Below are positions 3,069 to 41,378 of a stretch of DNA of 45,047 bases, piece after piece. Each line of letters starts with the position of its first letter. Position 1 is the first letter of the stretch. Origin of the DNA: a virus. The notes under the pieces are model-generated. The model was given only the letters and a program-made list of their open reading frames with translations, searched no databases and was not told where the DNA came from. Location of the stretch: positions 1 to 45,047 of the IMG/VR virus record IMGVR_UViG_3300031339_000014; one strand, given 5' to 3'. The position numbers were made by a program, and so were the translations under genes.

Positions 3069-4289
3069 ATGGCCAACACTTTAAAAGACGTTTTTAGGAA
3101 ATACACCTCTGACGTCAAAATTACCCCCGCATTGATTCAAGAGCTGCGTGTGTTTGAAAGTCAGTTCGTGAATAAGAACGAAGACCACATTGCGTATTTT
3201 GGTGGGAATCTTTTAGGCGTCCATCCGATGCGTTTTAAACAAACTGATTACAACGCCTGGTTTGATGTGGTGTTGGTCATTGACGATATGGCCCTGCAAG
3301 AAGACATTTTTAACTTACCCGCAATTACTCGCACGCATAAAGTAGGCCCTAACGTATTCAACCAGTCTTGTGTGTGGTTGATTCACGCCATCCGCACATC
3401 GAGTTTAACCGACGCACTTAAACGCGAAGGCGAACTTTTGGTTGCATTGATCTTTCAGTACCGGCTGATGGGCAGCATTCTTAGTCGATTCTTCCCGTAC
3501 CCGGCGGATGAGGCTATCGCCCAAGCCACGTACAAAGCGTTATCCCGTAAGTTTACCTTAAAAGAACACGGCAGTTGGAAGAAGTTGTTTGTGGCTCGGG
3601 CCGAAGAGTTGTTGTCTGAACGCTCTATTCACACCAAGGCGTTTTTAACGCACGAGCCGGATGACAAAGTCCTCTATGCCATCAGTGATATACACACCCG
3701 ACTCAAGCAACTCGTTAAAGACATGAACGACGTGTTTTACCGCATACGCGCCTCTGAGTCTCGTGTATCGTCCGGCGGTATGGTGGGCGAACAAGACGGA
3801 GAGAAGCTCATACGCGATGTGATCAACAAAGAACGCGACTACATCCGCTACATACACACCACGATTGAAACCAAAACGTCGTTCATTAAAGACGATCTGG
3901 TGGAAACCACCTTGGAGTTGATGCACACCACCTCAGAGAAACACCTTCGGGACTCCTTACTGTACATGATCAACAACTACAACGGACGGATGGCGAAAGA
4001 CATCCAGATGCTGACGCAGGAACTGGTGGTGTATTCCATGGACTACGTCCAGACACACCGTGACACAATCCCCAATCCCAAAGATTTCCAATCGGTGGTA
4101 TTGCGTTTACGAGGCGTGTTCATGGCCTCTAAAAACAACGAGGAGTCGATCCAAAAGATCCGACAGACCGCGGAGAAGATCGTGCGTCTGGCCACGGGTA
4201 CCCGTAATCCTAACACACTGTCAGCCGCTCGTACGGGGCTGCTGATCTACTTGTTACTGCGCACCCTAGCCAAAGACTACTACGGATAG
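3069..4289 (+). CDS. Unknown phage protein, 406 aa, mostly helical
   Basis: The frame starts at ATG 3069 (MANTLKDVF) without a clear ribosome binding site and ends at a convergent terminator shared with the terminase gene. The predicted product is long, charged and rich in amphipathic helices, with an R/K/E-rich middle (about 230-330) that may form coiled coil. The C-terminus has a short hydrophobic patch (LLIYLLLRTL). No enzyme motif was seen. It stands alone between terminators. A virion structural role is possible but not shown. Confidence 0.8.
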   Translation: MANTLKDVFRKYTSDVKITPALIQELRVFESQFVNKNEDHIAYFGGNLLGVHPMRFKQTDYNAWFDVVLVIDDMALQEDIFNLPAITRTHKVGPNVFNQSCVWLIHAIRTSSLTDALKREGELLVALIFQYRLMGSILSRFFPYPADEAIAQATYKALSRKFTLKEHGSWKKLFVARAEELLSERSIHTKAFLTHEPDDKVLYAISDIHTRLKQLVKDMNDVFYRIRASESRVSSGGMVGEQDGEKLIRDVINKERDYIRYIHTTIETKTSFIKDDLVETTLELMHTTSEKHLRDSLLYMINNYNGRMAKDIQMLTQELVVYSMDYVQTHRDTIPNPKDFQSVVLRLRGVFMASKNNEESIQKIRQTAEKIVRLATGTRNPNTLSAARTGLLIYLLLRTLAKDYYG

Positions 4290-4296
4290 CATATAC

Positions 4297-4326
4297 CCCT
4301 GTGAGCCCCCTGAGGAGCTCACAGGG
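4297..4326. terminator. Bidirectional terminator between convergent genes
   Basis: A perfect ten-base-pair stem, CCCTGTGAGC with GCTCACAGGG, encloses a ten-base loop. It sits between the stop codons of the rightward 406-aa gene and the leftward terminase. Confidence 0.75.
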
Positions 4327-4337
4327 TACTTATGCCG

Positions 4338-6470
4338 TTATCGTCGACCCAGTCTCATGGCTTTTCGTTTGTTTTCCCGATCCATTGAGGCCTGTTCGAT
4401 CATGGCGTCGATGGACAGGTAGTCCTCATCGCTTTCGATCAGTTTTGACGACAGGCGGTAGATCTTACTTTCCAGTCTGGATATTTTAAACACATCGAAC
4501 GTATTGCGCAGCTCCTCCCAGATGGCGCCCATTTCCTCTTGCAGTTGTTCTTGCTCAAAATCGTGCAACTGCTCCTTCAAAGGCATGTCCTCACGTTTTT
4601 TATAGGCTGAGGTTTTAATGGTCAATGGGTCAATGCCATAGAACTTCAAGTTCTTAGCGTGAGTTACAAACCATTCCGACATGAGTACCGAAACCACCAT
4701 GTCGTCGTGCCCGGTTTCACTGTGATCAATCCGTCCATCGCGTATCACCAGACCCAACAACTCTTGTATCAGTGTTTTGTCATACACCATGCCCGCCGCT
4801 TTGGCTGTGTAAGACCCCAGTACAACGCTGTACAGCAATTTACGGCTGTCGCCTGTGGTGTTAAAGCCAAAGTATTTCTTGTACTTGCTGTACACCTCAG
4901 GGTGGCGGCGGTTCATGGGCGTCAAGACCACGTCCTTATAATCCTGCGACGACTTAGGCGCCTCATCCACGATGCGGTTAAAGATCCGCCTAAACGGATC
5001 CTCACCCCGCTTAGGCAGCTCGATCAGCAACGTATCGATGATGTTTTGTGCAGACGACTTCTTCTCGATGACCATGGTGACGTTTTTGTACTCGCACAAA
5101 AACCACGCCAAAAACTTACCAAACCGATACAGATTGGTTTCGTTAATAGACATAGTCGCGATGGTTTCCATATTGACCACGGATGAGATGATGAATCCGA
5201 TACCGTCTCGCCCTATGGCCTCTGAGGTATCCAACCCCAGCACGGTTTTGTTATCGCGCATGTACTCATCGATTGAGTTTTCCTCAAGGTACCACTTCAG
5301 GATGTAGTACTCCCGACAAATGTGGTTGTACGACGCATCCCTCTCAGAGTCCCTTATGACTTCGGCCAGCCGTGGGTCGATGGGATTTTCCTCACCCCCC
5401 GACTCCCAGATGTTAAAGAAGTCCATGTTAGCGCCGGAGCCGGTGGCGTTGTTTTCCGCCAGGGTCTTAGCCAACCACTCGTCAGACTTACCCAACTGGC
5501 GATGGTTGAACACCCCGTGGATCATCAGCTTACGACCCTTACCGTTGGTCAGTACCAGGTTGTGGAGTTGTTTCTCGTTTTCCGCGTCGTAGAACGACTC
5601 GGTCCAAGGGGCGGCTCGGTGAAAGAACTTGTACACGTACTTACCCACACGGGTGTCTTTGCGGCCTGCGGTGGTGGTGTAGAGGTTGCCGTAAGGGTTG
5701 TCGTACAAAGCGGCTTCTTCACGTGCAGCGTTACCCGCCGCCAGCGCCGCTGGCATGGTCACATCCAGCAAGGAGATAAACGCGGTCTCGTCGTATTGTT
5801 GTACCGGCATGGTGAACCCACGCCCGATATTGTTGGCGCCTATCTCGGATTTTTGACCCACCGCTGTTTTGTAATGATTCTGCAACGTTTCGTAAGAGAA
5901 CTCGGATTGGTTGTCAACGTCCAATCGGTTTTTTGTATAAATGTACCCAGGCAGAAAATCCCTTACTCGTTTGATACGGTCGACGTTGGACCGACGCAAA
6001 GCGTCATCCTTAGTAAAGAGCCCCATCATGGTGTTAGACGAGAATACGTACATGAGACCCGCCATCAAACAGTCGGCGGTGACCGACTTACCTGTCTGAC
6101 GGATTTGCACCAACGCGTAATCGATGTGATTAAAGAACGACCAATACAAGGAGATGTTGCCCCGATTGGCCCTGAGTGGAACGGGATTGGGCCCGGCTTG
6201 AGGCGGCACTCGCACAATCTCACGGAAAAAGTACCAGGGGTTAAACTGGGCCTCCATGCGGATCATGTTCTTAGTCTCAAAGGTCAGATGTGGGTCAAAC
6301 GGATCCACGTGCTCCAGTTCGGGGTTAAGCAGCGCTAAATGAAACAGATGATTCTTTACTCCCATCTTTTTCAGCAGTACTGCAAACTCAACCCAAGATT
6401 TGTTCTTGGTGGTGTGGTGGACGACAGCGGTTGGGTAGGACAGCCAGTCTCTTTCGAACAATATAGTCAT
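4338..6470 (-). CDS. terL: Terminase large subunit
   Basis: This 710-aa protein is the predicted DNA-packaging motor, an ATPase plus nuclease that acts at the prohead portal. A Walker A-like motif QIRQTGKS is at residues 122-129 and a Walker B/catalytic acid at QQYDE (Y226-D227-E228). The C-terminal RNase H-like nuclease domain shows LGLDTSEA (D414), a second acid in VIEKKS (about E469), and GHDDM (D589/D590). A charged helical tail follows. The start has GAGG eight bases upstream. Its place at the end of a leftward block leading from the sheath gene recalls phiKZ gp25-gp30. Large-subunit length is typical of giant phages. No small subunit is identifiable beside it. Confidence 0.92.
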   Translation of the reverse strand: MTILFERDWLSYPTAVVHHTTKNKSWVEFAVLLKKMGVKNHLFHLALLNPELEHVDPFDPHLTFETKNMIRMEAQFNPWYFFREIVRVPPQAGPNPVPLRANRGNISLYWSFFNHIDYALVQIRQTGKSVTADCLMAGLMYVFSSNTMMGLFTKDDALRRSNVDRIKRVRDFLPGYIYTKNRLDVDNQSEFSYETLQNHYKTAVGQKSEIGANNIGRGFTMPVQQYDETAFISLLDVTMPAALAAGNAAREEAALYDNPYGNLYTTTAGRKDTRVGKYVYKFFHRAAPWTESFYDAENEKQLHNLVLTNGKGRKLMIHGVFNHRQLGKSDEWLAKTLAENNATGSGANMDFFNIWESGGEENPIDPRLAEVIRDSERDASYNHICREYYILKWYLEENSIDEYMRDNKTVLGLDTSEAIGRDGIGFIISSVVNMETIATMSINETNLYRFGKFLAWFLCEYKNVTMVIEKKSSAQNIIDTLLIELPKRGEDPFRRIFNRIVDEAPKSSQDYKDVVLTPMNRRHPEVYSKYKKYFGFNTTGDSRKLLYSVVLGSYTAKAAGMVYDKTLIQELLGLVIRDGRIDHSETGHDDMVVSVLMSEWFVTHAKNLKFYGIDPLTIKTSAYKKREDMPLKEQLHDFEQEQLQEEMGAIWEELRNTFDVFKISRLESKIYRLSSKLIESDEDYLSIDAMIEQASMDRENKRKAMRLGRR

Positions 6471-20496: not shown

Positions 20497-23400
20497 TCAA
20501 ACATCCCCGAAATACATCGCCACCGCGCGCTTGGTGATCTCGTCCATCAACAACGCCGCCGTCCCCACCAACGCAGGGGAGTTCACGATGCGGTCATCGA
20601 TGGACTTGTACCCAAAGATCGCGTCGATCTCATCGCCGTCCTCAGTGAGGATAGGCTCGTCTATGACATCCCGTATGACTGTTTTTAGCTGGTGCATAAA
20701 AATTAGCTTCTATTTTGTCCAGTGTGGGTACGACCCCACACCCGGTGCGATACCTGGCACCCGCCCGTACTCTCGCACGGGTACAGACCATATCTTCACC
20801 CCTCACATCGTGAGTAGGGTGCTCCCCATTTTGCCGACGCTCTGCGCCAGCTACACCGTGGTTAGCGGTTGGCCGTTGAACCTTCTCCGTATCTCGTCTC
20901 ACGACGATACGTAGGAGCTTGGCTGCGGATTGCCCATCTATCACATCTCTTTGTTACCGTACCCAGGGAGTTAGTCTGGCCACCGGTGCCTTTCGCACAC
21001 CGGCTTGGTAGAGATGGCTTTAGGGAATTCCCGTCAATTAAAGGAGGATCATTGCATCTTTACAGACACAACGGACTGAGGTATAACGACACCCCGATCA
21101 CCTACACCCGCAGGCTCTGGGCCTGTGATGTAAAACTTCAAGACAGCTGTGTTGGGCGATAGCTCTTTGCCTGCCACTCTCATAGAGTTATCGACACTTC
21201 CCGACTGTACTTTTTGCTGCTTTGCCTTGGCCAGTGTCTTAATGCGCTTGTCAGATGTTTTAGCCAGAGCTTGCAGCGTCGAGGACATGTCTTCTAACTC
21301 ACCGTTGTACAACACCTCAATGCGCTCCAGCACTCCGGACCCTTTTACCTTAGGCGCTTTAGAAGCGATCTTTTTGAGCGTGTCAAGGGCGGCCTCAGAC
21401 AAGTCCCCGCCGGCAGCAGCGGTAGGCTCTTCCAATAGACACAGCACATCGTCGTAGTCTACGGTTGCTCCTATCTTTTGCGGGTTACGCACCACGGTTT
21501 CAAAGTCCACTACGACTTGCCGCAGCTTAGTGGTGGTGGACTCCATGCGCGCCGCCATCGATGCAGAGATAGCCGAACTGTCTTCCAGCGTATCGGGAGA
21601 CTCCCACAGCACGGTCTTTGCTTGGGTTGTGGTCTTTAACAACACCTGACCGGGCTCCATGGGGTCGAGATCAAAGTACGCGGTGTTGTACGACAACACA
21701 TCCCCGACTTTCACAGACTGACCCACTTTAAGTGGGGTAATCAGCTGATGTGGGAACATCTGTTCCGAGGAAGGACCCGTACCGTAACGTCGCCCTATCT
21801 CAATCGCCTGCTTAGTACCGTCCTTATATTGCACCTCCAACACCGAGTCGGTGACCGAGATAACCTTACCGGGTTGCTTGGCGGTCTGAGCAAACAGATC
21901 GCTGGTGCGGTGAGCAATGACTTGCTCCATCCCCGTGCGCACTGTGGTCGGCGTGTAGTCTTTAGCCGCAATGCTTGACCCGTACTGAATACTGATAAAA
22001 TTGCTTATTGTCCGCTTTGATCGCGTATCAAAGCCGGTGCGAGTCCTAGCACCCGCCTACAGTTACCTGTAGGAACAGACCATCTCATCTCCCTCTGTGC
22101 ACCTAGATGCGATCAGATAGGGAGCTTCCCGTTTCCATTTAATCCAGAATGACGAGGTGATTACCCCCGACTGGAACCCCATATCGCTTGGGCTGTACTC
22201 TACTCGCTTTAGTGTGTGTTACACACCACCTGACTTTACACAGGTGTCACTCCGCCTTTTCAGGCCGCAGCTTTCGATGGCCGTTGAACACACTCTCTTT
22301 TAGGGAGAGCTTCGTAACGGATTGTCTTCTTAGTGAAGAGATTCCCGTTTTAGGGAAGTTATGCAACCGGACTCACGTCCAGAAGGCGCCTATTGTTGAC
22401 GCGCTTTATATCGTCCCTATCTGAAGACGGTGACAACAATGTCGACGTACTGAAGTAATTCGCTGGACCATCGGCGTCCGTCCTAGGGCGCGTGGTGCCT
22501 CGTACCGAGGTAAAGTTCGGATCCGCTGATAAGTAGATGGTGGAACCTACTTTCCCAGAGTCCACGGTGGCCTCCGATATCACGCCCAAATCGCTGTGGT
22601 GATAATGACGAGTACGCTCCACCATGGAGCGTGTGCTGCGTCCGCCTACGCCACTGAACGTTACGTCCTCGTTTTCGCGAAGTTGTGAGACGGGGTTGTT
22701 GCCTTTACTTAGGTTGATCGACGGATCCCCCAGTATGCTGTACCACACCGCCTCCGGGTTCATCTCAAACTTGGCTTTGCGAGTGTTAGGGTTCATGGCG
22801 TACCCCCGCGCTGCCCGCACCAGTTCTTGATACACCGCCCCGGTCATACGCTCATACCCGCGGATGCGTTGGTAGTTGAGGTCGTTCTCCTGTGGGTGGT
22901 CATCGGTGAGCAGCAGCTCATTGGCTAGGTACAACAAGCCCCGAAACGTCTCAGGCTCATTACGATCTTGCAGTATGCCTAAGGTAATCGGATCCACAAA
23001 CATTTTGTCCATCAGATCCAGCTCTCGGGCGTACCTTACGCCCAAGCCCACTTCTTCCAGCAAGTTCTTGTAGATGTCTTTCTTTTCAAACTCCCTGGAT
23101 GAATAGCGCTGCACTAGGCGTTTGTATTGGTTGTAGCCGTTAAGCAACAGCGCCGCTTCGGTGTCTTCCCGTGAGAAGATGTAGGACTCATTGGCAAAAC
23201 GAATGGCGTACTCATGCGGTTGTAACTGCATCTTTTCGCCTGAAGCCACAATCCTGGGGGTGACGTTCAGTGAACGGTACAACCCCTTAAAGCCGAGTGT
23301 ATACCCCAAAGCCACACCCAACGCAATGGATTTACCAAACAGTTTGATCTCAGCCACATCCACAGGCGCCGCTGACAGATCAATCCCCGCCAGCTCTTCA

Positions 23401-25451
23401 ATGGTACCCAGCTCCTCCGGTGCCCGGTCTGTGTGGCGGTACAACGTACTGGCCGCATCGCTCATTTGCATAAGGACATAGTCCCCTGCTTTCTTGCCCA
23501 CGATGACCCAGCCCGACACCTCTATCTTCGCCAAATCGTCTTTGTACAGACGCACCACCTCTTCGCGGTCGAAATAAAGAGCCACACCCCCCAGCGATAC
23601 CCGGGACATCTTTTTGGCCAAGGTACTGTACACCCTAGGCAGCTTGGCCTCGCTGCGAAATACATTGCCCAACTTAAGGCCTTTGATGCGCGTATCCGCA
23701 TCGTCCAGCCCCACACCGATTACCGCTTTGGTCAACCAGGCGCCGTAGTCATAAGCCACTTTGGATGAGCGCTCTACAAAGCACTTGCCGTAGTAAGACG
23801 TTAGAGCCACTTTGTCAGGGGCGGTTTTACGGATGGGGAGGTCGCCACGTTGCCAGCGCATGTACTGTGTAATGCCGTTGACTTTGAACGTGCCGTCTGG
23901 GTTGATCACGGGCAGCTTAAAGCGCACCGTGGAGGGCGACCCTGTCAGGGGCTGCAGGCGCACTGTGTGAGCCTCGTAGGCGCCCCCAGCGTCCTCGTGT
24001 CGTTCTATGTCGTAGTCTGTGACCGATGCACCCATGCGTTGCAGGGACAGTACGTGGTTGGTGATGTCCTTTTGCATGACTTTATCGACGTACTGATTGC
24101 GCACGGTATTGATGGACGAAGTGCGCATGGAATCGTCTGGCACTCCGGTGGTTTTGTCCATCAATGTCTCGGTTTCTATCGCCAGATCCTCCGGAGTGAT
24201 CTTAGCAAAGACGTCCAGCGGTTCCTTAGTCAGCGGGTGCTTGACCGCGCGGTATGTGGTCGAGAGTTTTTTTGCACGGCGGTATTCAGCGCCGGACATC
24301 CGACCCGCCTCCACCAGCCCGTCTGCCACGTTCATGAACGCCTGTTCAGGCTCGGGGTCGGTGGCTTGCCGAATAGTCTGTACGGTGGGAGCAATGGCGG
24401 TATTTGCCGCGGGGACTTCCTCTAGTCCATCCAGATCGTCTTCGTCTTTCTCAGCGACGGCGTCCTTCTGACCGACCCGGCGCCTAGGGACGCTTGCACC
24501 CTCCTCATCGGCGTCATCCTCGTCTTCTTCATCCACGACGTTGTCGTCGCCGTCTTGCTTGGCCAGGTATGTTGCCGCGTCTTTTGTTGATACGCCACCA
24601 CGACCCGCTTCTTGCAGGGTCATCAGAAGCGCCAAAAAGCGCTTACGCACGCCGGTGACGTCCCGCTCTTTGTCGTCTCCTTCCACTTCGTACGTAAACC
24701 CTTTAAGGGTCCCTAACGATATTGAAAACCACCGATCCTGGTAGCGCCAGATCATGTTGACCCGACCCCAGTACTCTTTGGGTATACGGTCGTACACCGA
24801 CTGATCCGATTCTGGATCCAACATCAGGTACGCGTCCATGACGTTGAGCGCCTCAGGCGTATCAAAGGTCTTCATGGCGTCAGTGGTCCAACCTTCTTTA
24901 GCCACCTTGCGCATGGCCGACAACGTCGGCAGTACATCCGGTACCTCAATCCGCAAAAACTGCGTACGGTCCGTGGTCTTTAAATGATCCAGCATCTCCA
25001 GCATCAGCGTGTTGTGGAGGTTGATCCAGCTTTGGTACGTGGTGCGGTACGTGCGGGTGTACAGGTAATGATGCTGTATGGGGGCGTAGTTGACCACGAG
25101 CAAGGATTTGTCATCCCGCACTGAGGTCTCGCGCTTCTTGGAGCGGCGCAGCAGCCGATGACGGCGGTGAAACGCCTTGACGTCCCGGTCTTCGTTGAAC
25201 GGCAACTCCCGCATCCGCCCCTCGGTCGGCTCACGATAGCGGTGTACGTGTTCCACGTAGATGTTCCGGTCCACTTCGGTCAGTAAAGGGTCGGATGCAT
25301 CCGGGCCGGTGACGGTCTCAGACTCGGGTAAGTAATGAAACGTCGCCCCACGGGGCAACTGCATCGCCATCATGTCGAAGTGTTTGTCGGTGGTCATCTC
25401 TGCAAACTTACGCACCTGAAACTGTCGGTGGTACAAATCCATCCGAATCAT
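20497..25451 (-). CDS. RNA polymerase beta subunit, N-terminal major part, three exons
   Basis: Exons on the minus strand are 25451-22399, 22003-21097 and 20709-20497. They join in frame to 1390 aa; ATG 25451 overlaps the beta-prime stop as ATGA. RpoB landmarks: GTFKVNGITQYMRW (about 515-530, lobe), NNPVSQL through DLGVISEA (918-961, the NPLSELTHKRR to RLCPIETPEG segment), DDIKRVNFISIQ (1013-1024), VRTGMEQ (1039-1045), LEDSSAIS (1157-1164, the FEDSILVS motif), and GDKLIFMHQLK (1319-1329, both NTP/RNA-contacting lysines). An acidic linker at about 300-345 is phage-specific. The protein stops 70 residues after the GDK region; the missing C-terminus is encoded at 40722-41378. Read unspliced, it looks like three broken ORFs. 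The likely role is the virion or late phage polymerase. Confidence 0.9.
20710..21096 (-). ncRNA. Group I intron A in beta (387 nt)
   Basis: The intron separates GGTGAT from AAGCTAATT so the exons read GVGD|KLIFMHQLK. On the minus strand the group I core is present: Q element AATCCGCAGCC (plus 20921-20931), R element GTTCAACGGCC (20871-20881) and S element AAGATATGGTCTG (20784-20796), which pair to make P7. The 5' exon ends in T (U.G pair with GUC in AGTCCGT, 21071-21077); the intron ends in G. P9-type hairpins follow the S element. No homing endonuclease ORF fits. The core closely resembles intron C. Confidence 0.92.
22004..22398 (-). ncRNA. Group I intron B in beta (395 nt)
   Basis: The intron interrupts the codon GT|C so that the joined exons read DDIKRV-NFISIQ, exactly the expected conserved beta sequence. 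P1 forms between exon GCGT and intron GCGC. A hairpin GGAC-GTGA-GTCC follows as P2. Core elements on the minus strand: GACAATCCGTTACG (22313-22326), GTTCAACGGCC (22279-22289) and a divergent S, AGATGAGATGGTCTG (22076-22090). The 3' end GGACAATAAG|C parallels intron A. The core is the most diverged of the three. No endonuclease ORF is present. Confidence 0.9.
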
Positions 25452-27418
25452 AGGGGTTCACCTGTTAAATTGTTGAGCACCAGTTCGATGGTGTCCGTCG
25501 AGGTACTCGCCCGGAACCCACCGCGTGGGTCGACGTAGGTGTTGATGTTGCCTAGGAGATCGTTGATCTCTTTTAGGCCGTTGTTGGTGTACACAATGTC
25601 GGCACTGCACGTATCGCCGTCGAACGTTGCCTTCGCCTAGGACGCAAACCCTAGACCGCCTCTCCAGGAGGCTGCCCCGGCTCTCACCAGGGAACGAGAC
25701 CATATCTTCACCCTACTAGGTAGGGGCTCTCCACTTCGGACCGCCTAAGCTTGCGTGTCCTACTCCGTGCTACCGGATGGCCGTTGAACCTTATCCCTAT
25801 CCTGCCGTCGCGGCAGTACGTAGGATCTTGGCTGCTGATTTTCTCTACTTCTTGCTTGTCAAACCGTGACCGCGTGCTTTCGCCGAGGCAGTGGTGCAAG
25901 AATCTAACGAGATCTTCCAGCAATTCAAAGAGTAACGTCACCTTCGTTACCAAAGGGACGGACTGTGTGGGTAAAGTACCCACGTTTATCAGCGTCGAGA
26001 CCGGCTAGGCGCGTGGTGTCAGGCACCAACGCGTCCATAAAGGCCATGCCCGGTAAAGGATACTCACGTGCGACGTGAGTATCCTGCAACTGCCATCGCG
26101 CGTCGTACTCCAGCAGTCGTTTGGTTTTGGTGGTGGTGTGGGTGTAGAACCTTGTCGGGTACGTAGACTCTGACCCCGTTACGGGAAATCGCGTTACGTA
26201 CCCCCCAAATTCATACCACTTCTGATACTGACACAGATAACACACTTCAACCAACGAGATGGGGCGTACGTTGTCTCGCGAGAACTCGTCTGGCAGGTCG
26301 TCGATGTCGTCAAACACCCGAAAACCTTTGTCGTCTTGATACACTAAAAAGGCGTAATGATCCCCAAGCATCACAGGGCGATGACGCACCGCCGCGTCTT
26401 TGAACCGATTGATGAGTTTTTCCACGCCTTCGCTGGTGGTCCAGGCGTCTATGTCGGCGGTGTCCAGCGTTACCGACTCAGGCTTCCACGTCATTCGATT
26501 CACCACTGTCACGTTGCCTTCTTGTGTACTGAACCTGGATGCCATGAACGTACGCAGAGCGTACTTGGTAATTGGCAATGTACCTTTCATAATTTGAAAC
26601 AGACCGATGCCGGTGTCCGTCACTGACGCCAGGTTATCGGCGTCTAAGGATTCACGTACGGCGTTCTTGGACGCGATAACGTTCCGCGTGCCGTTGAAGA
26701 TGCTGCGACTGGCCCACTTGGACAACATAAACCCACTTTTACCGTCCAGCAGATCTTTGATGTACGCGTAAATATCGTTGAGGGTGTTTTGGAGTGTCTT
26801 CCGGGTAGCGTCCTGGGCAGACGTCTCGCCGTCTTTGCCAATGAGATTCGCCACACCGATCACACGGGCGTATTTCTTATTGATCTCGTCTTTCTTTACC
26901 CGGCCGGTGCCATCGTCTTCGATGTCCCGCAGCCCCGCAGGCAGTACCAGCAGGTAGCGTATAAGGGCGCGATCCATGTTTTTCTGGATGAGGAGGATGC
27001 GATCATCACGCTCCGCAGACCCCGTGCGCTTAAATTTAATATCCGCCATGTGTTTGATAAAGAACGCATAACCGGTTTGACCGTCGAGCTCGTTAGACCG
27101 CACAAAGTCTTTTTCTTTCGCGTCCCAATCGGCGTAGTCCGTACCCTCAAGAATGCCTTTGTACAGACCTTTTAGCTTGCTGTACGCATCGTACAGGATC
27201 GGATGTAAGATACGCGTGTTCATGTCAATGTAAGCAAACTGCTCCGTTCGGCGATCCTCCCCCTTACGGCCAAAGAACTCCGTGGAGAACAATCCTTCCG
27301 GATGAAGGTTGTCCGTCGCACCATCGGTAATGTCCAGTACGGTAATTTGAGGAACACCCTGCAGGCTGCGTTTGTCCACTTGTAAAATTTCTAAGTTAAA
27401 CGGTGGCTTCTTAGCCAT
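25448..27418 (-). CDS. RNA polymerase beta-prime subunit, N-terminal part, two exons
   Basis: Exons 27418-25988 and 25624-25448 join to 535 aa. The N-terminus has GLFSTEFFG (beta-prime GLFCxxIFG). An LPAGLRDIE...KYARVIGVANLI segment corresponds to the RpoC VLPPDLRP...YRRVINRNNR region, and SKWASRSIFNGTRNVI to the GKRVDYSGRSVI segment. The catalytic loop reads LDADFDGDT (474-482), with D477-F478 joined across intron C, carrying the Mg-binding Asp triad. The protein then ends about 55 residues later, so the rest of beta-prime is encoded elsewhere and was not found here. ATG 27418 has GGAG nine bases upstream. The unspliced frame would run 20 codons into the intron and stop. Confidence 0.9.
25625..25987 (-). 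ncRNA. Group I intron C in beta-prime, inside the DFDGD motif (363 nt)
   Basis: It splits GAC-GCT-GAT | TTC-GAC-GGC-GAT, that is, D|FDGD of the polymerase active site. Core elements on the minus strand: AATCAGCAGCC (25830-25840), GTTCAACGGCC (25779-25789), AAGATATGGTCTC (25696-25708). A hairpin GTGGGT/ACCCAC lies just inside the 5' end (25967-25983), followed by AGTCCGT (25958-25964), which can pair with exon GAT through the conserved U.G. The same AGTCCGT block is in intron A. No endonuclease ORF is present. Confidence 0.93.
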
Positions 27419-40721: not shown

Positions 40722-41378
40722 TCATAGGTTGTTGTTCAGGTGCATCCCCTTTAGGAATGTGCGCAGCGTACTGATGGATCGTACCTCACCCGTATCGGGT
40801 ATGGCGTCCATGTCGACCTCGCCCGTCTCTGCAATCATCTGCTCCATGAGGCGATACGCCTCCTCATCACCGCCACGGAACTTGACGAACTCCCGGATAG
40901 ACTGCTCGGCGCCCTGGGCGTAGAGCATCTGCACCTGAGGAAAACTGATGCGGGAGCCTTTAGACGCCCCTGTGGCCTGCCCTGTCAAATCGTCGATGCG
41001 TTTGTTATCCTCAGCCACCGAGATCTTTTTGGTCAACGACTGCTCTTGACGTCGCAGCGGTACGTCGATCACCATGTAAGGGATAGGGGTCAGATACCGG
41101 TTACCTTCCCCATCGGACAACTCAATGTGATGAAAGACTTTGCGTTTGTACTTATCCAACAACGCGAGATTGCGTTCTATTTGCAAACCCTCCCCTATGG
41201 CGTTAGGGACAGTAATGTGGAGTCGCCCACCGTCTCGCAGGTAGCGCATGAACGTATCAAACGCTTTATCGCTCATGGCCTCAAAGCGCTCCGTGTAATA
41301 CGCTTTGTTACCCCCTTTGGGTAGGATCTCCTCGACGGCCTTAACAATAAACGCTTCAACTTTTTTACGGTTGCTCAC
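40722..41378 (-). CDS. RNA polymerase beta subunit, C-terminal part
   Basis: The 218-aa protein (GTG start 41378, AGAGG upstream) contains the C-terminal beta region. PIPYMVIDVPLRR (98-110) aligns with GYMYMLKLNHLVDD, and LTGQATGASKGSRISFPQ (131-148) followed by QMLYAQGAEQSIREFV (150-165) aligns with [38 protein letters not shown]. This is exactly the segment missing from the 1390-aa beta part. In phiKZ the virion polymerase beta is likewise encoded in two genes (remembered as gp178 and gp149). It probably assembles with the products of 20497-27418. Confidence 0.82.
   Translation of the reverse strand: MSNRKKVEAFIVKAVEEILPKGGNKAYYTERFEAMSDKAFDTFMRYLRDGGRLHITVPNAIGEGLQIERNLALLDKYKRKVFHHIELSDGEGNRYLTPIPYMVIDVPLRRQEQSLTKKISVAEDNKRIDDLTGQATGASKGSRISFPQVQMLYAQGAEQSIREFVKFRGGDEEAYRLMEQMIAETGEVDMDAIPDTGEVRSISTLRTFLKGMHLNNNL

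Follow-up and report, generated by a model that had tools for sequence, protein, structure and literature searches.

The intron of PhiPA3 gp210 lies directly after the DD of the β subunit of the virion RNA polymerase (vRNAP) and is used against phage phiKZ, according to the accessible portion of the study (Birkholz et al. 2024, PMC11620839). The main text of that study, to the extent accessible, contains no mention of phiKZ gp179 or gp180. The legend of figure 7 in PMC5105663 refers to a diagram of vRNAP subunits from SPN3US, phiKZ and 201phi2-1, with introns drawn as triangles and a homing nuclease as a square; introns in vRNAP subunit genes were thus already known by 2016. In the accessible parts of two other papers, the PhiPA3 homologue of PhiKZ179 is described as acting in inter-phage competition (PMC12571901), and insertion at conserved positions, active sites among them, is stated to be of benefit to introns (PMC12908238). 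No report of introns inside the DxDGD motif of phage polymerases was found in the literature searched, which was available in part and has few subscription journals.

The DNA considered here (the window, i.e. the whole stretch analysed) is a virus record of 45,047 bases, a genome fragment. Rfam finds three group I introns in it, all on the minus strand and situated in two adjacent vRNAP genes. These are termed I1, I2 and I3. An earlier note on this DNA, made from the sequence alone, had described I1; I2 and I3 are absent from it. The main reading, to which a probability of roughly 0.93 is given, is that I1 is a self-splicing group I intron in a phiKZ-type vRNAP β′ gene, one of three such introns, and a member of a recurrent mobile family.

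The polymerase genes and intron I1

Tail sheath, terminase and virion proteins are among the phage families to which genes of the window can be assigned, and by tblastn (294 phage records) its β′ protein is closest to those of phiKZ-type jumbo phages. The interrupted gene encodes the vRNAP β′ N-terminal subunit of the phiKZ gp180 type (phrog_2986, 1.6e-166). This assignment is based on homology along the length of the protein and on the DxDGD motif, which is restored solely on joining of the exons. The vRNAP β gene (phrog_3148), also on the minus strand, overlaps the β′ stop codon. Coordinates are listed in Table 1.

Table 1. Polymerase exons, introns and I1 structural elements in the window
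Feature	Position	Strand	Remarks
vRNAP β′ exon 1	25988..27418	-	477 codons, ends ...GLDAD; phrog_2986; 90.4% aa identity to G001
Intron I1, group I, 363 nt, at D/FDGD	25625..25987	-	RF00028, exact junction, G001 copy, covariation
I1 P1-extension hairpin GTGGGTA / TACCCAC	25967..25983	-	read from sequence
I1 internal guide GUC	25961..25963	-	pairs with 5′ exon GAU, U.G at splice site
I1 P7 5′ strand GGCC, part of guanosine-binding helix	25779..25782	-	pairs with 25698-25701
I1 P7 3′ strand GGTC	25698..25701	-	pairs with 25779-25782
vRNAP β′ exon 2	25448..25624	-	58 codons (FDGDT...) plus a stop codon that overlaps β start; 93.1% aa identity to G001
vRNAP β exon 1 (phiKZ gp178 type)	22399..25451	-	ends ...DDIKRV, codon phase 2; phrog_3148 E 0
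Intron I2, group I, 395 nt, at DDIKRV/NFISIQ	22004..22398	-	RF00028; exact junction; same site in G001
vRNAP β exon 2	21097..22003	-	ends ...GPEPAGVGD; phrog_3148 7.9e-100
Intron I3, group I, 387 nt, at GD/K of catalytic-lysine motif	20710..21096	-	RF00028; empty site in G001
vRNAP β exon 3	20497..20709	-	KLIFMHQLKTV...YFGDV, stop; in-frame continuation; homologous to G001 KVVFMGQLKSV

I1 can be delimited to the exact base. On its 5′ side the β′ exon terminates in GCTGAT at 25988, the last base of I1 (25625) is G, and the 3′ exon begins TTCGACGGCGAT at 25624. The joined exons read RLAGLDADFDGDTCSADIVY, and the joined protein reads GLDAD/FDGDTCSAD, with I1 between the GAT and TTC codons. I1 matches RF00028 with 56.3 bits (gathering score 50; E 9.3e-12 when the window is scanned) at 25677-25987, and the match spans model positions 1-253 of 253. 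The earlier note had placed a group I intron between D and F of DFDGD, with a spliced product reading LDADFDGDT, and had called for a covariance-model search; the exact junction, the joined frame GLDADFDGDT and a match over the full model above the gathering score all bear it out. I1 is thus real and was correctly placed, and it is at a site where group I introns recur.

The unspliced β′ frame continues for 20 codons into I1 and ends at a TGA stop, without FDGD. It had also been claimed that unspliced RNA gives a catalytically dead protein and that polymerase output depends wholly on splicing. The lack of the Mg motif in the unspliced product follows from the reading frame; the complete dependence on splicing is presumed.

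Two side observations concern other genes of the window. An intact 218-aa RNA polymerase β subunit reading frame at 40722-41378 (-) (phrog_3233, 9.3e-74), possibly a C-terminal β subunit, has no Pfam matches up to 0.01. A 710-aa terminase large subunit at 4338-6470 (-) also has none up to that value, and its profile matches are found only at residues 2-223 and, weakly, 527-606.

Ribozyme fold and covariation

Eight introns were aligned: I1, its copy in the related IMG/VR contig G001, I3, and those of L027, L060, L029, L089 and LucasX, the last five of which come from the same β′ motif. The ends of the L029 intron may be off by two bases in this alignment. The structure considered consists of P2, P3, P4, P5, P6, P7, P8 and P9, with P7 added by hand. 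Of 344 cells, 95.3% pair, whereas shuffles reach 75.9% (sd 1.5) and slid controls 37.5-49.7%; the value of 95.3% is favoured by the nested part of the structure, which was derived by RNAalifold from the same alignment. Both-sided changes are present in 26 of 43 pairs, compared with a shuffle mean of 17.6, and none of 500 shuffles is as high. By helix, they are found in P3 (4/6 pairs), P6 (2/4), P7 (1/4) and P8 (3/5). P4 is nearly invariant and has them in 0/7 pairs. P7 is paired in all eight sequences, as GGCC/GGUC in three and as GACU/AGUC in five. The core pairs are intact, and the predicted fold, including P7, is supported by covariation.

The pairing of guide GUC with exon GAU is common to I1, its G001 copy, I3, L027, L060, L089 and LucasX, and the P1-extension stem of I1 is retained in G001 with a G-C to A-U exchange. 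No convincing P10 pairing is evident beside the I1 guide, as judged by eye only. The minimum free energy fold of I1 is unremarkable (z -1.78 versus shuffles, with 5 of 100 shuffles folding as well).

The sister introns I2 and I3

I2 matches RF00028 at 22056-22411 with 53.3 bits. Its junction gives the joined sequence SDRDDIKRV/NFISIQ, as in an uninterrupted homologue's DDPKRVNFISIQ. A junction directly after DD was rejected, as the product would be three residues too long (DDRSKRTISNF) compared with DDPKRVNF of uninterrupted homologues; in the corrected junction the 5′ end is moved by 11 nt and the 3′ end by 20 nt. I2 is found at the same site in G001. In its P1 both exon and guide are changed between the window and G001, and four consecutive pairs are still formed.

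I3 has the highest score of the three, 69.9 bits at 20764-21088. Joining at its ends gives GVGD/KLIFMHQLK, to be compared with GVGDKVVFMGQLK in G001, where the I3 site is empty (GGTGAT/AAG). The two lysines of KLIFMHQLK, encoded after I3, are eight residues apart, and presumably correspond to K1065 and K1073 of E. coli β. The conserved lysines K386 and K394 of phiKZ gp71-73 show the same eight-residue spacing (PMC8287921, accessible portion). Together with the junctions of I1, I2 and I3, this spacing places all three introns in motifs of the catalytic centre.

A derivation of I3 from I1 by movement within the genome was considered and is not supported. I3 matches the G001 copy of I1 with 80.6 bits and I1 itself with 72.5 bits, but it matches an intron in the PhiPA3 non-virion RNA polymerase (nvRNAP) about as well (75 bits, from another search space and scoring).

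How often the vRNAP sites are interrupted

The β′ gene was read at the nucleotide level in 18 phage loci (L006-L013, L015-L024), which were partly picked because they looked interrupted and therefore give no rate. Ten are interrupted in or beside DxDGD; the eight uninterrupted ones are Eowyn, FLC9, Deimos-Minion, PhiEaH1, KTN4, Proteus phage 10, pVa-21 and 2050HW. The gene is cut exactly at GAT/TTY in phiKZ, U5, Goslar and LucasX, and IMG/VR loci L014 (G001), L027, L060, L089 and L092 are interrupted at the same nucleotide position as the window. Insertions follow DxD in pir03 and IR-QUMS, DxDGD in ZK_P1 and VP4B, and DFDG in PS2 and CF8, where the position comes from exon 1 alone. RF00028 is above cut-off for the insertions of phiKZ, U5, Goslar, LucasX and VP4B and below the gathering score for pir03 (40.7 bits), IR-QUMS (45.5) and ZK_P1 (34.5); those of PS2 and CF8 have no RF00028 match. 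In the record of L006 (Serratia phage 2050HW), β′ is annotated at 3983-5622 as three overlapping reading frames, although no large insertion is seen in the protein match; frameshifts in the record are perhaps the cause.

A broader sample consists of 79 IMG/VR loci, obtained by taking the 80 best among 283 relatives and leaving out G001, with duplicates included (L089 equals L092 over the stretch compared, and L056 carries Goslar's intron and is probably Goslar itself). Counts are from tblastn spans; a regular-expression count was discarded, as it found a reading frame in just 44 of the 79 loci. The β′ motif is uninterrupted in 72 loci and interrupted in seven: L027, L029, L036, L056, L060, L089 and L092. 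The introns of L027, L060, L089 and L092 are 353-397 nt long and cut at the same base as that of the window, and the insertions of L029 and L036 are about 1 and 2 nt further on, by a frame argument. The introns of L027, L029, L060 and LucasX are confirmed RF00028 members by cmscan.

At the GD/K site of I3 (site D), 69 of the 79 loci are uninterrupted, two show the left exon only (L081 and L089, where the stored locus stops) and eight are not reached; there is no confirmed interruption in this sample. Of the other two β sites, site B is uninterrupted in 62 loci, interrupted or left exon only in 11 and not reached in six, and the corresponding numbers for site C are 68, seven and four. L036 at site B and L096 at site C are entered as left exon only. 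Breaks at L030 and L058 (site B) and L085 (site C) are seen in one comparison but not in the tblastn-span count.

A further recurrent vRNAP β site is found near (K/R)GD/LPIRK. Insertions of about 0.6-1.95 kb are present there in L036, L060, L072, L077, L081, L085, L091 and L011, and Rfam was run on L060, L081 and L011 (pir03).

It had been suggested that an endonuclease-free intron in this motif is unusual. This does not hold as to the site, since the same nucleotide is occupied in phiKZ, U5, Goslar, LucasX and several IMG/VR loci. Nor does the lack of an endonuclease appear to be a rarity, given the introns of 353-405 nt at this site in LucasX, G001, L027, L060, L089 and L092.

Endonuclease content

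As claimed in the earlier note, no endonuclease is recognised in I1, and the same applies to I2 and I3. HNH_3, GIY-YIG and HNH, the families searched, were not found in the six frames of the window (a 45-kb genome fragment) or of G001, and thus I1 encodes no homing endonuclease of its own from these families. The longest complete reading frame within I1 has 91 codons and a GTG start, and in G001 this frame is broken by a one-base indel near its start.

Larger introns at the same motif do carry such genes. The intron reading frames of phiKZ, Goslar, pir03, ZK_P1 and IR-QUMS match HNH_3 above cut-off, and U5 has a reading frame positioned as in the phiKZ intron. The HNH reading frames scanned are 317-490 aa in length, for which the six introns of 353-405 nt are too short; for these the lack is judged by length, and for G001 by the six-frame scan. 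In LucasX, a reading frame between β′ and β was considered as a free-standing endonuclease and rejected: apart from weak similarity to phiKZ internal head proteins, it has no Pfam match up to 0.01.

Of interest here are two introns at KRV/N of vRNAP β, one of 373 nt (L045, 12166-12538) and one of 1397 nt (L090, 12141-13537). They are 92.6% identical over 367 nt, with flanking exons at 75-77%. The extra kilobase of the L090 intron contains a 356-aa reading frame that matches HNH_3 only weakly (17.3 bits, 0.0038; below the 24.8 cut-off). To judge from this similarity, the two are the same intron without and with a reading frame, and small introns at vRNAP sites can therefore be versions of larger ones that lack the reading frame. 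A larger version of I1 was not found.

Movement of the introns

G001 is the nearest relative found, and I1 is present there at the same site. The two copies of I1 are 91.7% identical (332/362, 14 gap columns). β′ exon 1 has 79.1% nucleotide identity to G001 and 41.5% identity at 188 fourfold sites. I1 is more similar than its flanking exons, whereas I2 reaches only 79.3% by the same global alignment (307/387, 66 gap columns). The contrast between I1 and I2 gives a Fisher p of 1.5e-6, but compares two different introns. BLAST local matches show a smaller contrast, with 89.1% over 375 for I1, 83.9% over 355 for I2 and 76-80% for the exons. Fourfold identity is 30.8% of only 13 sites over the 30 codons that precede I1, and 50% of six sites over the 20 codons that follow it. 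No long co-converted tract is therefore evident upstream. It should be pointed out that the Rfam match leaves out the final 52 nt of I1, and that these too have hardly changed in G001. When IMG/VR was searched with two exact patterns from I1, G001 alone was found.

Other pairs of introns at the same site are only modestly above their exons, i.e. L072/L091 with 80.0% versus 73-74% and LucasX/L089 with 80.4% versus 70-74%. There are alleles with and without an intron among relatives: I3 is present in the window and absent from G001, and the I1 site is occupied in phiKZ and empty in KTN4. In a comparison of 36 nt, the joined phiKZ exons are identical to the empty KTN4 site; the two records carry the same label, Phikzvirus phiKZ. 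The high identity of I1 relative to its exons is most simply explained by a spread between the lineages of the window and G001 that is more recent than their divergence.

It is possible, although doubtful, that I1 was inherited vertically instead, the 91.7% identity reflecting strong constraint on the ribozyme with no recent transfer. Group I cores are constrained, the L072/L091 and LucasX/L089 introns are barely more similar than their exons, and I1 and I2 differ less by BLAST, all of which would agree with such an origin. Yet I2, from the same pair of genomes, has diverged far more by global alignment, the segment of I1 past the Rfam match is nearly unchanged as well, and the L045/L090 pair shows the same excess of intron over exon similarity.

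Interpretation

Most likely, I1 is a selfish, self-splicing intron from a mobile family that lost its endonuclease or borrows one. The 5′ exon GAU would pair with the guide GUC to form the U.G at the 5′ splice site, which a guanosine bound by P7 would attack; joining at the 3′ splice site, which follows the terminal G, would then restore D-F-D-G-D. I1 might spread by homing, with the endonuclease lost from the intron or supplied from elsewhere. Introns appear to return to catalytic motifs because these codons are highly conserved and an intron there is not losable by imprecise deletion. The basis for this interpretation is the RNA family, the exact junctions, the empty sites, the covariation, and the presence and absence of introns between relatives.

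Two other interpretations concern what I1 does in the cell. It is highly improbable that I1 is a dead relic that does not splice, the phage making a split or truncated β′. RNAP subunits of jumbo phages are naturally split polypeptides (accessible parts of PMC7598289 and PMC5105663), which is in favour of this concept. However, the gene would end before FDGD and lose the Mg-binding Asp residues. Exon 2 shows 93.1% amino acid identity to G001 versus 40% identity at 25 fourfold sites, which points to selection as protein, and the core has compensatory changes with its pairs intact. Improbable also is a role of the introns as domesticated switches and not as parasites, whereby splicing regulates vRNAP production and, for example, delays active enzyme until late infection. 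The two overlapping genes contain three introns, each at a catalytic motif and with no recognised endonuclease, which might be looked at in this way, but the β′ motif is uninterrupted in the large majority of IMG/VR loci (72/79), KTN4 is without phiKZ's intron and G001 without I3; such a patchy distribution fits mobility better.

Taken alone, I1 is nothing out of the ordinary, being a mobile group I intron at a site where such introns recur. Of more use is the broader picture of a single polymerase with three introns at three catalytic motifs and no recognised endonuclease. The same or nearby sites of relatives, which are empty or occupied by introns with or without an endonuclease, provide a natural series on how introns persist and spread after endonuclease loss. 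Across phages, insertions in the DxDGD codons follow nt 3, ~4, ~5, 9, 12 and 15 (group I status being unconfirmed for those after ~nt 5 and nt 12), and insertion points in vRNAP β are DD/, KRV/N, near GD/LP, and GD/K. A tentative concept, which is less probable than not, is that the catalytic codons are a standing battleground where small introns without endonucleases keep moving between diverged phages, with phiKZ gp179 mirroring PhiPA3 gp210. Such introns might borrow nucleases or enter by reverse splicing, without a long co-converted exon tract.

The relation between gp179 and gp210 deserves a comment. The β′ site of PhiPA3 gp212 is empty (GAC TTC GAT GGT GAC; HQ630627, 194500-199500), and in phiKZ (AF399011, 181789-195240) gp178 is empty at the site attacked by PhiPA3 gp210. 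Because both sites are empty, gp179 might be looked at as a mirror weapon of gp210, and the two possibly constitute a mirror pair of homing weapons. If so, gp179 should attack the empty β′ gene of PhiPA3, in a reversal of what has been published for gp210 and phiKZ.

Comparison with known systems

The gp71-73 intron of phiKZ had been offered as a precedent for I1. Like I1 it is a group I intron in the gene of a phage multisubunit RNAP, but the gp180/gp179 intron of the same phage is the closer case. Located near conserved β lysines, the gp71-73 intron is comparable with I3, and differs in that it belongs to the other polymerase, nvRNAP, and not to vRNAP. In the PhiPA3 counterpart of gp71-73, exon 1 reads through KLTDFHGG, and the intron is apparently between the two lysines (by eye), whereas I3 is just before the first lysine.

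A side observation may be added on the phiKZ nvRNAP. Within 48500-53500 of phiKZ, the β′ gene gp55 is apparently interrupted two to three codons before DFDGD (group I, 75.6 bits), with reading frame gp56 in between and an exon 2 that reads NTADFDGDQLN.

Reportedly, several group I introns in one gene were described in phage Twort by Landthaler and Shub in 1999; this is another gene and another phage group. The PhiPA3 gp210 intron, from the accessible portion of its description, is a group I intron in β of the same polymerase and in the same DD-x-KR stretch as I2. Its HNH endonuclease nicks the phiKZ gene, while I2 is 11 nt downstream (DDIKRV/NF) and has no recognised endonuclease. The introns of LucasX, L027, L060 and L089/L092 share the position and GUC guide of I1 and are comparable in length (353-405 nt), but their sequences have diverged: the BLAST match of I1 with LucasX covers 29 nt only, and there is none with L027.

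The phiKZ gp180/gp179 intron is in the same gene and at the same nucleotide (GAT/TTC) as I1, and its core scores 92.2 bits, above gathering. It is 1443 nt in length and encodes the HNH protein gp179, whereas I1 has 363 nt and no such gene, and the two cores show short BLAST matches only. To these systems the locus adds I2 and I3 as sister introns, a site that coincides exactly with that of phiKZ gp180/gp179, the GD/K site, which was not seen interrupted elsewhere in the sample, and the series of sites with and without introns among relatives.
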